64,000 nt of DNA, taken from the NCBI RefSeq assembly GCF_009754915.1, contig NZ_WPIK01000006.1:1-64000 (forward strand), in the 5' to 3' direction. The notes beneath the pieces were generated by a model. The model was given only the letters and a program-made list of their open reading frames with translations. It was not told where the DNA came from and made no database searches. Made by a program: the position numbers and the translations under genes. This document shows positions 225-31,995 of this stretch, piece by piece; within the stretch, counting starts at the first letter, position 1; each line of letters begins with the position of its first letter. Source of the stretch: Mucilaginibacter arboris. Lineage in GTDB: Bacteria > Bacteroidota > Bacteroidia > Sphingobacteriales > Sphingobacteriaceae.

Positions 225-1230
225 TTAAACATATTTTTGACAACATACTTAGATAAAACAATATTTCATTATTTACAGTAGTTTAAAAAAGTTGATAATG
301 TATTCATATTCCTTACTAGTTTTCCTCAGTAATGATTTTTTTTAATAATATATTAATAATATAACAGTAGTAAATGAAGAACGTATAAAAAAAGCAATTT
401 AGGATGACTTACGTACACTTACAAGACAATAAGATTAAATGAAAAAATTAATAATATTTATACTGTTGCTTTCATGTTTAAATTTAAGAGCACAAAGGCA
501 CAACTTAATTCTTGAACAAACATTTGATAATGATATAGGTATCTGGTTTGAAAACAATATGATCCAACCCTATTCAGCTACTGTTTCGAACTTTACACAA
601 AGAGCCGGAGGCAAATCCTTACAAGTTGATTTAAGAAAATTTGATGGTTATAGGGCGGAATTTGGTACAGACCCCAAAAAATCCTTACCGGAACAATGGG
701 CAGGATTTTCAATTTTTTTACCAAATGCTTTTGCAAAAGATTTCTCTGAAGAGGGCATTATGCAATTTCAAGCTTATCCTGACTTTAATTTAGGTGAAGA
801 TTGGAGAAGTCCACCACTGTTATTAGGTATTCTTAACGATCATTATATTCTTGATATGAGAACGGATAGTAACGCCGTTACAGTACAAGGTAATTTTGCT
901 TTTGAAAGGATAGATTTAGGGTTAGTAACAAAAAATACCTGGACTGATTTTATATTTCATATTAAATGGGCTTATAATAACACCGGTATATTAGAATTAT
1001 GGAAGAATGGTAAACTTGTGTATAGCAGGTTAAATAAGCCAAATAGTTATAATGATAAATTGTATCCTTACTTTAAATGTGGTATTTATAAATGGGATTG
1101 GGAGGGTCCAAGTAATTCTGTTACTACAGAAAGACTACTTTACATAGATGAAGTCAGAATAGGTAATGAAAAAGCTACCTACTGTGATGTTTTTCCCGGA
1201 ACGCTAACTAAGCCTTATATTACAGGTTCT

Positions 1231-1689
1231 ATAAAAAGAGAACAGTGGGACAACGTAGGCGGTACAAGCATATCAGACATTCCGCTTACAATAACACCCT
1301 CTTCAACCAGTCAGTTAACTTCTTTTGAAGGACCATTAAACATAGCAGATAATTACGGTTCACGAATTCAGGGTTATATCTGCCCGCCTCAACCCGGCAA
1401 CTATACTTTCTGGCTTGCAACAGATGATGCAGGTGAGCTATGGCTTTCAACTGATAGTACCACAGCTAATAAAGTTCGGATTGCAAATGTTGATGGCTGG
1501 ACTAATTATCGGGAATGGGGTAAATATTCTTCACAAAAATCTGCTGCAATTACCCTACAGGCAGGAAAAAAATATTACATAGAAGCCTTGCAAAAAGAAG
1601 GGGGCGGCGGCGATAACCTTTCGGTACAATGGCAACTACCCGACGCAAGTATGGAAACACCGATTGCAGGAAGCCATCTTTCGCCTTAT
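1231..1689 (+). repeat. PA14-encoding direct repeat, copy 1
   Basis: This 459-base unit encodes the first PA14 domain (REQWDNVGG to IAGSHLSPY). It matches copy 2 at 1981-2439 with the same length and high base identity, suggesting a fairly recent internal duplication. Confidence 0.85.
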
Positions 1690-1980
1690 GTAGATACAAC
1701 TGCTTTAATAAATCAGACGATTACTTTTGCAGCGCTTCCTTCTAAAACGACCTCTGATACGCCTTTTACATTAAGCGCTACTGCTTCATCCGGCCTTGCC
1801 GTGAGTTTTAGTGTTATTTCTGGTCCGGCTACCATTTCCGACAGTACTGTTACGCTTACCGGTGAGGGTAGTGTAATTGTAGAAGCTTCACAAGCGGGGA
1901 ATTCTGTTTACAATGCTGCTACAGGCGTTATACAAAGCTTTACGGTTTCAAGTGCTGCTACCTGTTCGGCAACTGGTACC

Positions 1981-2439
1981 ATTTTACGGGAAGAATGGGA
2001 TAATGTAGGCGGAACAAGCATATCAGATATCCCGCTTACAACAACACCTTCTTCAACCAGTCAGTTAACTTCTTTTGAAGGGTCATTAAACATAGCAGAT
2101 AATTATGCTTCAAGAGTTCGGGGATAAATTTGTCCTCTTCAAACCGGAAGTTATACTTTCTGGCTTGCAACCGATGATGCTGGCGAACTTTGGCTTTCTA
2201 CCGATGACCAGCCTGTTAATAAAATCAGGATTGCCAATGTTGACGGCTGGACAAATTACCGGGAATGGGGTAAATATCCTTCACAAAAATCAATTTCAAT
2301 TACGTTACAGGCAGGAAAGAAATATTATGTAGAGGCCTTACAAAAAGAAGGCGGCGGCGGCGATAACCTTTCCGTACAATGGCAACTACCGGATGGAACG
2401 ATGGAAACGCCGATAGCAGGGAGCCATTTAGCGCCTTAT
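1981..2439 (+). repeat. PA14-encoding direct repeat, copy 2 (carries the nonsense codon)
   Basis: This is the second 459-base PA14 unit, colinear with copy 1. The codon at 2125-2127 is TAA here and TAT in copy 1; the rest of the frame is intact. Confidence 0.85.
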
Positions 2440-2781
2440 ATTTCTCAACAACTCAGCACATCTTCTCTTGCTGCCAGTATGATTGGAAGTACAATAACAT
2501 TAAATGATCCTGCAACAGTGAAAGCAGGGTTGTACATTTATCCTAATCCTGTTTCCAACCAAACAAATGTAGAATTTACATTAACCGAAGCAGGGCAAAC
2601 GGACATTGCATTAATTAACACAAAAGGCCAATTTATTAGTAAACTATTTACCGGACCAACCGAAGCAAACGTTAAAAAGAGTTTTATATTAAATGCAGAA
2701 ACTTTAAAGAACGGTGTTTATATTATCAATTTAATAAGTGGTAAAAATAGTTTTACTAAGAAAATTGTTGTAGTAAAATAG

Positions 2782-3342
2782 TAAAGATAGCAGCAGTTCT
2801 TGCAATGCATAACCATCAAATAAATCAGTAAGTTTTTTGATTAAGATTTTATTGTTATTAATTTCCTATAGAAACGATACTGTTTTTAATGGCATAAAAC
2901 GAAGTATCAAAAGCCATCTTCCCTCCAACAATCAAGTAACTTTCTATAAGGCTAACTTTTAAAACACCAGCTACGTAAAATTTATTATAAAGAGTTTATA
3001 TTGGGTTGAACCTAATCAATCTTCAACCAACATACTTATTTTAATAACTTAATGGAATTAAGCCCGGTGCCCAAAAAATGAGAAATCGCAATTTGCTGCT
3101 CAGCCTTATTTATTTAATGTGCCCGAAGCTAAAAAGGAAGTAATCAATACAGATCCTAAAACTTGTTTACGCATTTCCCTAACATGGTTTGTACAACAAA
3201 GGCTATCCGGAAAAGTACAACAGCAAGAACGGGATTTTGTGGAAAAGCAATTATGCCGAATAGGTTAGTTCCGCTTGTGTTGCAGCAACTACAATGGTTC
3301 TTTTATCGATTATAAATTAATATTGCAGGTAAAATAGAATCC
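2782..3342. other. AT-rich stretch with decayed coding remnant
   Basis: No intact gene is seen. Around 3090-3310 the plus strand keeps protein-like stretches in shifting frames: AQPYLFNVPEAKKEVINTDP in one frame, then HGLYNKGYPEKYNSKNG and ILWKSNYAE in another, ended by TAG, then VSSACVAATTMVLLSIIN. This looks like a gene remnant with at least one frameshift and stops. I cannot name the family. Confidence 0.45.
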
Positions 3343-3648
3343 TTATTGCGCAGAAAGCCATTTTTCCACCGTATCAATTTGCAGTCCAATTTCAGCAATC
3401 TGGAAGTCGTGCAGCCATTGGTCTTTCTGGCAAACCCAGCCTGTTAGCTGCCTGCAAAGTGTTATATTAATCAGCACATTTCGTCCTATAAAATTGTATA
3501 TTTCATGGTTTTCTGTTATTACAGTACCATAAACGCGGCCAAGTGTAGGGCTGGTAAAATATGCTTCCATTTGCTTTTTTAAAACAAGCAGTACATATTT
3601 AATACCAGCTTTGCTATTGCCTTTAACAATTTGGTTTTTGCAGATCAA
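3343..3648 (-). CDS. Hypothetical protein, possibly a fragment
   Basis: The 101-codon frame begins at a TTG just after a stop; the first ATG would give only about 75 residues (MEAYFTSPTLGRVYGT...). The C-terminal half (IYNFIGRNVLINITLC, WLHDFQIAEIGLQIDTVEKW) looks like a real folded protein but I do not recognise the family. Lack of a good start and the neighbouring decayed DNA suggest a 5'-truncated remnant. Confidence 0.35.
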   Translation of the reverse strand: MICKNQIVKGNSKAGIKYVLLVLKKQMEAYFTSPTLGRVYGTVITENHEIYNFIGRNVLINITLCRQLTGWVCQKDQWLHDFQIAEIGLQIDTVEKWLSAQ

Positions 3649-3811
3649 AGCTAATTGTTAGGCGCTAAATGCTTCTTTGACACTTTAGTTTTACAAGCTT
3701 CCCGCGTAAAAAATTCTTTTTTTAAACGGATGAGGAAATTTTGATGCAGGGCTTTCTACAATTTGGGGAACGGCAATCCACAGTTCTTATTTTAAAATCG
3801 TTGCTGCACCC

Positions 3812-3873
3812 ATACCTCAAATGCTTCTTTTAGCAAGCAAATTTTTAGGTGCTAAAAGAAGCATTTGAGGTAT
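3812..3873. repeat. Perfect 24-bp inverted repeat built on a pair of the dispersed 14-mer
   Basis: Arms 3812-3835 and 3850-3873 are exact reverse complements with a 14-base loop. Each arm contains the core ATGCTTCTTTTA / TAAAAGAAGCAT (3821-3832 and 3853-3864). It lies just downstream of the GH13 lipoprotein gene and may act as its terminator, although no clear U-tract follows. Confidence 0.9.
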
Positions 3874-3942
3874 CAGCTTGTAATAAGCTAAACTGTGTTT
3901 AGGTGATCAGGATTGAAACCCTTTTAAATACCTTGATTAAAC

Positions 3943-5832
3943 CTACTGCTTTAAAGCACTATTGCTGTAAACATGGTATTCTCCCGGGGCCAAAACCATG
4001 GAATATGGAAGCGAAGTTACACTAATGCTCTTGCCGCTGATGTTATCGTACCAGGTGCCAACAGCCGGAAAACTAATGTTGCCGGTTTGTGCAACCACAT
4101 CAAAATTACCAACTACTTCTACATGAACGCCATCCGTACCGTTTAGCTGAACTGTTTTAATAGCATTGGCCAGATCGTACTTAAAATTTGTGGTGGTAAA
4201 AACAGCATTCTTAGTTTTCATTTTAATCATCATGGCATAAACATCATGTAAATGTTTTCTGTTCGCATCGTTCAGGTAATCCCAGTGAATTGGTTTTTCC
4301 CCTGTCCTGCCATTTTGATCAATGCTGATATCATATCCTAATTCACCAAACTGCCATAACATTTTTGGCCTCGGGGCCGAAAATAAAAATGCTGCCGCCA
4401 TCTCTTCCCGTGCTAAACCTGTTGCCAACGTTTTAACATTATAACTTCCGGAACTGTTACCGTAAGATCCGTTCTTAAACTGCAAGCGTTCCTCGTCATG
4501 GCTTTCAAAATAACCCATGGCGTTGTCGTTAGCAAAACCATGCTGATCGTAAAATATCCATTGAAAATTCCAATCGGTATTATAACCCATTGTGGCCTGG
4601 TTGGCATTGTAGTTTGCATTGGCCCAGGGCATCATTCCCTGGGCAGCTAATTCTGCTTCTTCCTGGTTAACCGCAAAATGTTCCAGGACCACATAAACAC
4701 CGGGATCGAGGCTTTTCATATAACTGTTATAGGTTTTCCACAAGGCAACCCGGCTTGCATCATAAGCAGACCAGGCAGCATCGGTTGTAGAATTAGTTTG
4801 GGTAAACCCTTTGGATTGATCAAAACGGAAACCATCAATATGATATTCCTGTATCCAATACTTCATCACATTTTTAGTATAATACTGCGTTGCCGCACTC
4901 TGATGGTTTAACTGATAGCCAACCGCATAAGGGTGCATGTTCTGTGCATCAAACCAGGGGTTACTTACCGAAGGCGAACCGGAAGATGTAGCATACATTT
5001 GCACCATTGGCGATGAACCAAACTGATCTTCCAAAACAATATCCTGTATTACAGCAATGCCTTTTGCATGGCAGGCATCAACAAAAGCTTTGTATGCGTT
5101 TTTAGTGCCATAATATTTATCCAAGGCAAAACCAAAATTGGTATTGTAGCCCCAGGAAGAATTGCCTTCAAACTCGTTTACCGGCATCAGTTCTATGGCA
5201 TTCACACCCAGGTTTGCCAGGTAAGTAAGCGAATCTTTTACGGTTTGATAGTTATGCGCAGCAACAAAATCACGAACATGCAACTCATAAACTACCAGGT
5301 TTTTAGGATCCGGACGGGTAAAAGAAGTATTTTGCCAGGTGTATGAAGGCTGTGCATAAAACATGGTACTTACTATTCCGGTTGTTGCACCTGCTGGATA
5401 AGCTTTTAAGTTAGGATAAGTATCTGCTGTGATGTATTTATCGTTGTCTGGGTCCAAAACTTTTTCGGTATAAGGATCGGCAACTTTTATAGAATTATCA
5501 ATAAAATACTGGTAAGCATATTCTTTTGCCGGGTCCAGGTTATTAATCTGGACCCACCAGCGGTTGCCATCCGTGGTTTTAACCATGGCCGTTGGCTGCC
5601 AGTTATTAAACTCGCCAATAACACTTACCGAAGTTTTACCAGGTGCATATAAATTAAAAATAGCTGATTTACCTGAGTTGATAAAAGTAACGCCATCGCC
5701 TGCTGCAGAAGGGATTCCGGTGGAAATGGTTGTAGCTGGAGCGGAAACTTCTCTTGCAGCCGAATTTTTCTTACAGGCCACATTCAGGAAAAGCAAAAAA
5801 CTGATTAGCGTCAGGCTAAAGTTTTTGTTCAT
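3943..5832 (-). CDS. GH13 alpha-amylase-family lipoprotein (SusG-like position)
   Basis: 629 aa. The N-terminus is a lipoprotein signal (LLFLNVAC, then KKN), so the enzyme is probably anchored to the outer membrane. A CBM48/isoamylase-N domain (SVIGEFNNWQPTAM, about residues 55-125) precedes a GH13 barrel. Conserved region II GFRFDQSKG carries the nucleophile Asp, region III VVLEHF the acid/base Glu, and region IV FESHDEE the transition-state Asp, so the catalytic triad is present. Region I reads QDIVLEDQFG instead of the usual D-x-V-x-N-H, so the Asn-His pair is replaced by Glu-Asp, which is unusual. It is the last gene of the starch locus, 119 bases after the GH31 gene, and probably starts cutting starch at the cell surface. 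Confidence 0.88.
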   Translation of the reverse strand: MNKNFSLTLISFLLFLNVACKKNSAAREVSAPATTISTGIPSAAGDGVTFINSGKSAIFNLYAPGKTSVSVIGEFNNWQPTAMVKTTDGNRWWVQINNLDPAKEYAYQYFIDNSIKVADPYTEKVLDPDNDKYITADTYPNLKAYPAGATTGIVSTMFYAQPSYTWQNTSFTRPDPKNLVVYELHVRDFVAAHNYQTVKDSLTYLANLGVNAIELMPVNEFEGNSSWGYNTNFGFALDKYYGTKNAYKAFVDACHAKGIAVIQDIVLEDQFGSSPMVQMYATSSGSPSVSNPWFDAQNMHPYAVGYQLNHQSAATQYYTKNVMKYWIQEYHIDGFRFDQSKGFTQTNSTTDAAWSAYDASRVALWKTYNSYMKSLDPGVYVVLEHFAVNQEEAELAAQGMMPWANANYNANQATMGYNTDWNFQWIFYDQHGFANDNAMGYFESHDEERLQFKNGSYGNSSGSYNVKTLATGLAREEMAAAFLFSAPRPKMLWQFGELGYDISIDQNGRTGEKPIHWDYLNDANRKHLHDVYAMMIKMKTKNAVFTTTNFKYDLANAIKTVQLNGTDGVHVEVVGNFDVVAQTGNISFPAVGTWYDNISGKSISVTSLPYSMVLAPGEYHVYSNSALKQ

Positions 5833-30984: not shown

Positions 30985-31995
30985 ATGCTGAAAATCCATG
31001 TAGTATCAGAAACGCCCTTTGTGATGAAAGGACAGGGCGTGCATACTGCTTTTGTGGAACAAGTGGCATTGCTGAAAGAAAAAAACGATGTACAGGTAGT
31101 TGTGAACGAAGAAGGCTGGGGCGATGTGATGCACTGCCACACTTACGGCCCGTATTATTTTTGGAAAGGGCGCAAATATAAAGGCCGGCGCATCCATACG
31201 GCGCATGTGATCCCGGATTCGATAAAAGGGTCGCTGCCGATGTGGAAATACCTTTTTCCGTTTGTAAACTGGTTTTTTAAAAAGGTTTTTTCTTATGCTG
31301 ATGTGGTTATTGCTTTATCGCCGATGGTAGAAGAAGCAATTTTGGCATTGGGCGTAAAAAGCAGGATTGTTAAAATTTACAATCCGGTCTTAATCAGCAA
31401 ATGGAAACGCACCAATGAAAACAGGCAAAAAGGAAGGGAATTATTAAAACTGAGCGGAGATAAAAAAGTAATATTGGGCGTTGGCCAACTGCAAAGCCGA
31501 AAAGGACTGGAAGATTTTTTAGACATAGCAGAAGCAATACCCGAAGCCACTTTTGTTTGGGTTGGCGGCCGGCCATTTGGAAAACTAACCGAAGGCATAG
31601 AACGCATAAATAACCGCATAAAAAAAGCATCGCAGCATATTTATTTTGCCGGGATGTTTGACCTGGCTGCTATGCCAGCTATTTATGCTGCTGCGGATGT
31701 TCTGTTGTTTCCTTCCTACCAGGAAAACTGCCCTTTAGCGCCGCTTGAAGCTGCTGCTTGTGGTATGCCGGTTGTTTACCGCGACATCCGCGAATATTCG
31801 TTGCTGTATAAATTTCCTTACTTAAAAGCAGCAACAACCGAAGCCTACATTGCGCTAACTAAAAAACTGTTGCACGAGCCGGAATTTTACAGGCAAGGTT
31901 TACAGATTTCGGAACAATTGATCAAACAGTTTGACCAGGAAAAGATCAGGCAGGAACTGATTGATTTGTATCGGGAAGTGGTTGGGAAGGATTAA
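30985..31995 (+). CDS. GT4-type glycosyltransferase
   Basis: 336 aa, GT-B fold without membrane segments. The N-terminal acceptor half carries GQGVHTAF and HTAHVIPDS; the C-terminal half carries ILGVGQLQSRKGLEDFLDIA and the donor-binding E-x7-E motif in YQENCPLAPLEAAACGMPVV. This resembles diacylglycerol glucosyltransferases and related glycolipid enzymes. With the adjacent dedA gene it is probably a membrane glycolipid enzyme; donor and acceptor are not readable. Confidence 0.85.
   Translation: MLKIHVVSETPFVMKGQGVHTAFVEQVALLKEKNDVQVVVNEEGWGDVMHCHTYGPYYFWKGRKYKGRRIHTAHVIPDSIKGSLPMWKYLFPFVNWFFKKVFSYADVVIALSPMVEEAILALGVKSRIVKIYNPVLISKWKRTNENRQKGRELLKLSGDKKVILGVGQLQSRKGLEDFLDIAEAIPEATFVWVGGRPFGKLTEGIERINNRIKKASQHIYFAGMFDLAAMPAIYAAADVLLFPSYQENCPLAPLEAAACGMPVVYRDIREYSLLYKFPYLKAATTEAYIALTKKLLHEPEFYRQGLQISEQLIKQFDQEKIRQELIDLYREVVGKD

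Follow-up and report, generated by a model that had tools for sequence, protein, structure and literature searches.

An in-frame TAA codon in a lyase/PA14/T9SS gene of Mucilaginibacter arboris and a gene-conversion tract beside it

Introduction

Near the beginning of a 64,000-nucleotide stretch of the Mucilaginibacter arboris genome (called the window here), a frame of 781 codons runs from an ATG to a terminal TAG (positions 439 to 2781) and is interrupted by a TAA codon. This locus raises the question of whether the gene has been truncated by a nonsense mutation, yields a shorter product that still works, is read through at the stop, or is intact and was misread in a draft assembly. A first-pass annotation, made from the letters alone, had pointed out the stop and had proposed that gene conversion between the two repeats of the gene could repair or switch it.

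Results

A single stop interrupts an otherwise open frame

A recount of the frame gave the TAA as its only internal stop, as first reported. The 562 residues encoded up to the stop comprise a signal-like N-terminus, a PL20-like lyase domain, one PA14 repeat, a linker and one third of a second PA14 repeat. The 217 codons past it encode the remainder of the second PA14 repeat and a type IX secretion system (T9SS) type A sorting domain (Table 1). This open stretch exceeds chance: its probability, calculated from base composition, was about 1.6e-7, and the median open stretch past the stops of 35 open reading frames (ORFs) examined in the window was 6 codons. Only one other of these 35 ORFs was followed by more than 32 open codons (341 codons), and that stretch leads in frame into ORF 30985-31995, the next one listed. 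A search for wider damage 3' of the gene was negative: the longest stop-to-stop frame wholly within 2782-3942 was 104 aa, and a Pfam scan that took in two of the 17 frames listed for this interval gave no match. An Rfam search of the window gave no match at the gathering score.

Table 1. Coordinates of the features at the locus, in window positions
Feature	Position	Strand	Basis
DDE_3 transposase C-terminal end, cut by contig start	3..224	+	PF13358 E=1.8e-10
Truncated ORF	439..2127	+	562 aa, translation
Signal-peptide-like N-terminus	439..495	+	Hydrophobic, judged by eye from translation
Polysaccharide lyase domain, PL20-like	565..1158	+	PF14099 E=1.6e-35, residues 43-240; PDB 2zzj E=1.1e-10
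PA14 repeat copy 1	1222..1689	+	Repeat search, Pfam PF07691
Linker domain	1720..1968	+	Big-like by eye; common to the C19 gene; without Pfam match
PA14 repeat copy 2, stop inside	1972..2439	+	Repeat search, Pfam PF07691, alignment
In-frame TAA	2125..2127	+	Translation and repeat alignment
Remainder of frame, open	2128..2778	+	217 codons
Gene-conversion tract, partner repeat 2 of the C19 gene (~L004:653-1134)	2140..2439	+	4 differences/300
T9SS type A C-terminal sorting domain	2536..2772	+	PF18962 E=7.2e-13; TIGR04183 E=6.7e-12

The domains are those of a predicted T9SS-exported lyase

The domain searches bore out the architecture given in the first-pass annotation, with matches to PF14099, PF07691 and PF18962. 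The lyase domain scored 123.3 bits against a cut-off of 29.9 for PF14099, a family that we take to be broader than PL20. Both sorting-domain models, PF18962 and TIGR04183, scored above their cut-offs on the part 3' of the stop. The genome also encodes SprA, a core component of the T9SS (TIGR04189, 2641.9 bits against a cut-off of 200), and contains eight sorting-domain matches, one of which is the lyase gene itself. A single-sequence fold of the lyase domain had a mean pLDDT of 30.8 and was not used.

By sequence, the lyase domain matched the glucuronan lyase TrGL (PDB 2zzj), presumably a PL20 enzyme. The match covered residues 84-253, and in it Gln91 and Tyr200 of 2zzj were aligned with Gln and Tyr (residue numbers were counted by hand from the chain coordinates). 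Asp206 was opposite a Gly, and Arg51, His53 and Glu55 fell outside the aligned stretch. These six are the catalytic residues of TrGL according to an excerpt of its description (PMC7601620). Among six aligned lyases, the Gln was present in all six and the Tyr in four. Besides the unmatched Asp206, the window lyase differs from TrGL in being bacterial and in carrying PA14 modules and a T9SS tag.

The lyase domain was rare: it was found in 5 of the 151 family genomes searched (drawn from a larger group), the source genome included, and was absent from both further genomes examined in the genus. By contrast, a gene on C19, another contig of the source genome, shares the PA14 and sorting parts, as do genes in two genomes, G001 and G002. 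The C19 gene, G001:C98 and G002:C8 all have homologous PA14 repeats and a homologous sorting domain, and the linker has homologs in the C19 and G002 genes. The G001 and G002 genes have an N-terminal right-handed beta helix where the window gene has its lyase. The C19 paralog (L004:1-2218) is cut by a contig end, where repeats may have disrupted the assembly, and starts inside its ORF. By eye, it adjoins genes resembling exopolysaccharide export and glycosyltransferase genes.

Two more distant lyase loci were also seen. A PL20-like match in another genus (L064, G156:C13:202905-203575) is split over two frames, of 167 and 119 aa, and may be broken too. At L053 (G021:C98:11000-26000), two single-domain PL20-like lyases lie among exopolysaccharide-looking genes (epimerases and acetyltransferases, by eye), a neighbourhood that hints at a role of such lyases in processing the cell's own polysaccharide. 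Three stretches of viral contigs matched a pattern, and none was confirmed as a relative. A search of a library of papers found none joining a PA14 domain, the T9SS and a polysaccharide lyase.

The stop stands where other copies encode tyrosine

The two PA14 copies of the window gene are spaced 750 bases apart. They are 84% identical over 452 positions, with two blocks of 82% and 86%. The aligned repeats agreed with the earlier reading of TAT in copy 1 where copy 2 has TAA. We then compared copy 2 with the PA14 copies found in three genomes of the genus, the source genome included. In all eight other copies that cover the site (copy 1 of the window gene, three in the C19 gene, three in G002 and one in G001), the matching codon specified Tyr, seven times as TAT and once as TAC. 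A ninth, partial match (G001:C70:4536-4673) ends before the stop codon and was left out of the alignment. Compared with these intact relatives, copy 2 thus carries a disabling change. A tblastn search gave 33 matches at 20 loci, with Tyr at the stop position in 26, another residue in 7 and a stop codon in none; eight of the 33 are genus copies, the G001 copy being counted twice (L025 and L050).

Most of the second repeat matches a gene on another contig

Copy 2 is a mosaic. Its left part is nearest to copy 1 (1990-2139: 85.3% identity, the closest copy, vs 72.7%, or 41 differences in 150 bases, to repeat 2 of the C19 gene). Its right part is nearly identical to C19 repeat 2 (2140-2439: 98.7% vs 82.7% to copy 1). 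The last difference from C19 repeat 2 before this tract is at 2139, and from 2441 on the sequences differ again. The four differences within the tract are at 2157 and 2225 (both private to the C19 repeat), 2430 (private to the window repeat) and 2283 (private to neither). None of 10,000 permutations reproduced the best near-identical segment of the pair. Synonymous divergence from the C19 gene was 0.047 in the tract, vs 0.69, 0.84, 0.94 and 1.78 in four other segments; this comparison used the best local C19 match for each segment, so the partner repeat varies. In a permutation scan of all 36 repeat pairs, one other pair, C19_r3/G002_r1, gave a signal (5/1000), which we took as noise among 36 tests.

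A short near-identical tract between paralogs, with diverged flanks on both sides, marks recent ectopic gene conversion between two genes for T9SS surface proteins. Identities to the other repeat copies single out neither a donor nor a recipient. A collapse of C19 repeat 2 and copy 2 into one during assembly is less likely, because both have private bases in the tract and their flanks are different. The first-pass annotation was therefore right that the PA14 repeats convert one another, but the partner that can be seen is a repeat of another gene and not copy 1. The visible tract also begins 12 bases past the TAA and leaves the stop outside, so it gives no evidence for the proposed repair or switching of the stop.

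The clean downstream frame does little to date the stop

The open frame past the stop had been read as a sign of a very recent mutation. The 217 codons are indeed open, but this inference was weakened, because 2140-2439 belongs to the tract and the remaining codons would often stay free of stops without selection. Of the 651 bases in the frame past the stop, 300, or nearly half, lie within the exchanged DNA. With the window gene as recipient, this part would have been renewed, and its cleanness would be uninformative on the age of the stop. The other 113 codons (2440-2778) were simulated under neutrality with substitutions only, and they stayed stop-free in 58%, 34% and 13% of the runs at 0.05, 0.1 and 0.2 substitutions per site, respectively.

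We also compared the sorting-domain part with that of the C19 gene: 36 of 112 codons were nonsynonymous, with a dN of 0.21 and a dS of 1.78. The intact comparison, C19 vs G001, gave 38 of 115 codons, a dN of 0.21 and a dS of 1.65. The sorting part is thus not evolving faster than in the intact paralog, and no long decay is visible. Such apparent constraint argues against an old stop.

Among the alignment columns in which the other eight copies all have one residue, copy 2 departs from it at 4 of 20 left of the tract, the TAA being one of the four, and at 0 of 49 inside it. These left-side changes would fit decay partly overwritten by the tract. Among private bases left of the tract, all four in copy 2 change an amino acid, vs 32 of 60 in the other copies, a difference that was not significant (one-sided p 0.09). 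A comparable imbalance toward the left side (3 left, 1 right) was seen in G002 repeat 2, a copy free of any stop. Over the whole repeat, the private bases were amino-acid changing in 5 of 5 cases in copy 2 and in 77 of 161 in the other eight copies, as summed by hand.

Discussion

We consider the TAA to be most probably a truncating nonsense mutation (probability about 0.6), which keeps the lyase domain, removes the sorting tag and makes this a loss-of-export allele that is probably decaying. The intact gene would encode a PL20-like lyase that carries two PA14 modules and is exported by Sec and then by the T9SS. Translation would stop in the second PA14 module, at 562 residues, and the product would keep its signal-like N-terminus and its lyase domain. 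The sorting domain is absent from this product if the stop is real. Because of that loss, the truncated lyase would be expected to stay in the periplasm instead of reaching the surface; it may also be degraded, because it ends in a partial PA14 module. The earlier statement that the truncated form loses its secretion signal thus holds for the C-terminal T9SS sorting domain, but not for the N-terminal signal sequence. Translation from the first in-frame start past the stop, the ATG at 2401, would yield a product of 126 aa that lacks a signal sequence. Separately, roughly 300 bases just 3' of the stop were exchanged recently with the repeat of a paralogous PA14/T9SS protein. We infer from the sequence that the base is real, that the lyase is retained in the periplasm and that function is lost. 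Two results speak against this reading: the sorting-domain part is as constrained as in the intact paralog, and the test on private bases left of the tract fell short of significance. In short, unless the TAA stems from a sequencing error, the gene appears to be broken or shortened in an ordinary way.

Such an error, in base calling or in the consensus, would leave the gene intact, and we regard it as unlikely, though the likeliest of the alternatives. One differing base makes the stop in a frame that is open elsewhere, the assembly is a draft of 83 contigs, and the locus is repeat-rich and near a contig end. Constraint on the sorting domain resembles that in the intact paralog, and three other bases private to copy 2 lie within 45 bases of the stop base. 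However, the stop base is found in 0 of the 8 other copies, so reads mis-mapped from them would not give the stop. Four sites in the tract distinguish copy 2 from the C19 repeat, so that the two are not one collapsed copy, and a random error that creates a stop at exactly this place seems improbable a priori.

The nonsense allele could also be a working one, with the short form selected as an exported lyase that is retained in the periplasm. The lyase domain is whole and has the equivalents of Gln91 and Tyr200, two residues named as catalytic in the excerpt on TrGL (PMC7601620). In G021 and G070, the open frames of relatives are 278 to 312 codons long and stop just past the lyase domain. The window product, however, ends within a PA14 fold, three of the other catalytic residues in that excerpt lie outside the alignment and Asp206 faces a Gly (PMC7601620). 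Moreover, there is no sign of selection for a short form, and the sorting domain still looks constrained. We find this reading rather improbable.

Readthrough into a full-length protein, which the first-pass annotation had allowed for, would suit the open downstream frame and the constrained sorting domain, but it is very improbable because no UAA-reading tRNA was found at 38 tRNA places and TAA ends most of the window ORFs examined (24 of 35, the lyase ORF included); a stop occurs at the matching place in none of the other copies. The 38 places were those that exceeded the cut-off in a scan that scored 150 of 324 first-look candidates and could miss a tRNA, and ARAGORN, run on each of them, listed no anticodon for UAA. 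We give equally little credence to the idea that the PA14 copies form a reversible switch, in which conversion would place or remove the stop and move the lyase between surface and periplasm, with the tract as its trace.

The nonsense allele offers a plain case of a modular T9SS enzyme deprived of its sorting tag by one codon. The tract shows T9SS proteins encoded at different loci overwriting each other's PA14 modules, and a clean frame past a stop is weak evidence of youth if the downstream DNA belongs to a gene-converting repeat family. Domain rearrangement and allelic exchange are described, in an excerpt of PMC5266723, for Porphyromonas gingivalis surface proteins that include T9SS cargo. 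The likeness lies in recombination among domain-sharing T9SS-exported proteins, for which that excerpt proposes gene conversion (PMC5266723). The exchange in P. gingivalis was inferred across strains, whereas here it involves two loci of one genome, one of them with a stop (PMC5266723).

The surroundings of the gene add two observations. The window starts at base 1 of contig C56, and the transposase end found there, presumably of the IS630 type, matched only itself in the assembly. On the other side of the gene, a perfect inverted repeat (3812-3873), whose 24-base arms are separated by 14 bases, lies just past the end of an amylase-family gene on the minus strand (3943-5832) and is possibly a terminator.
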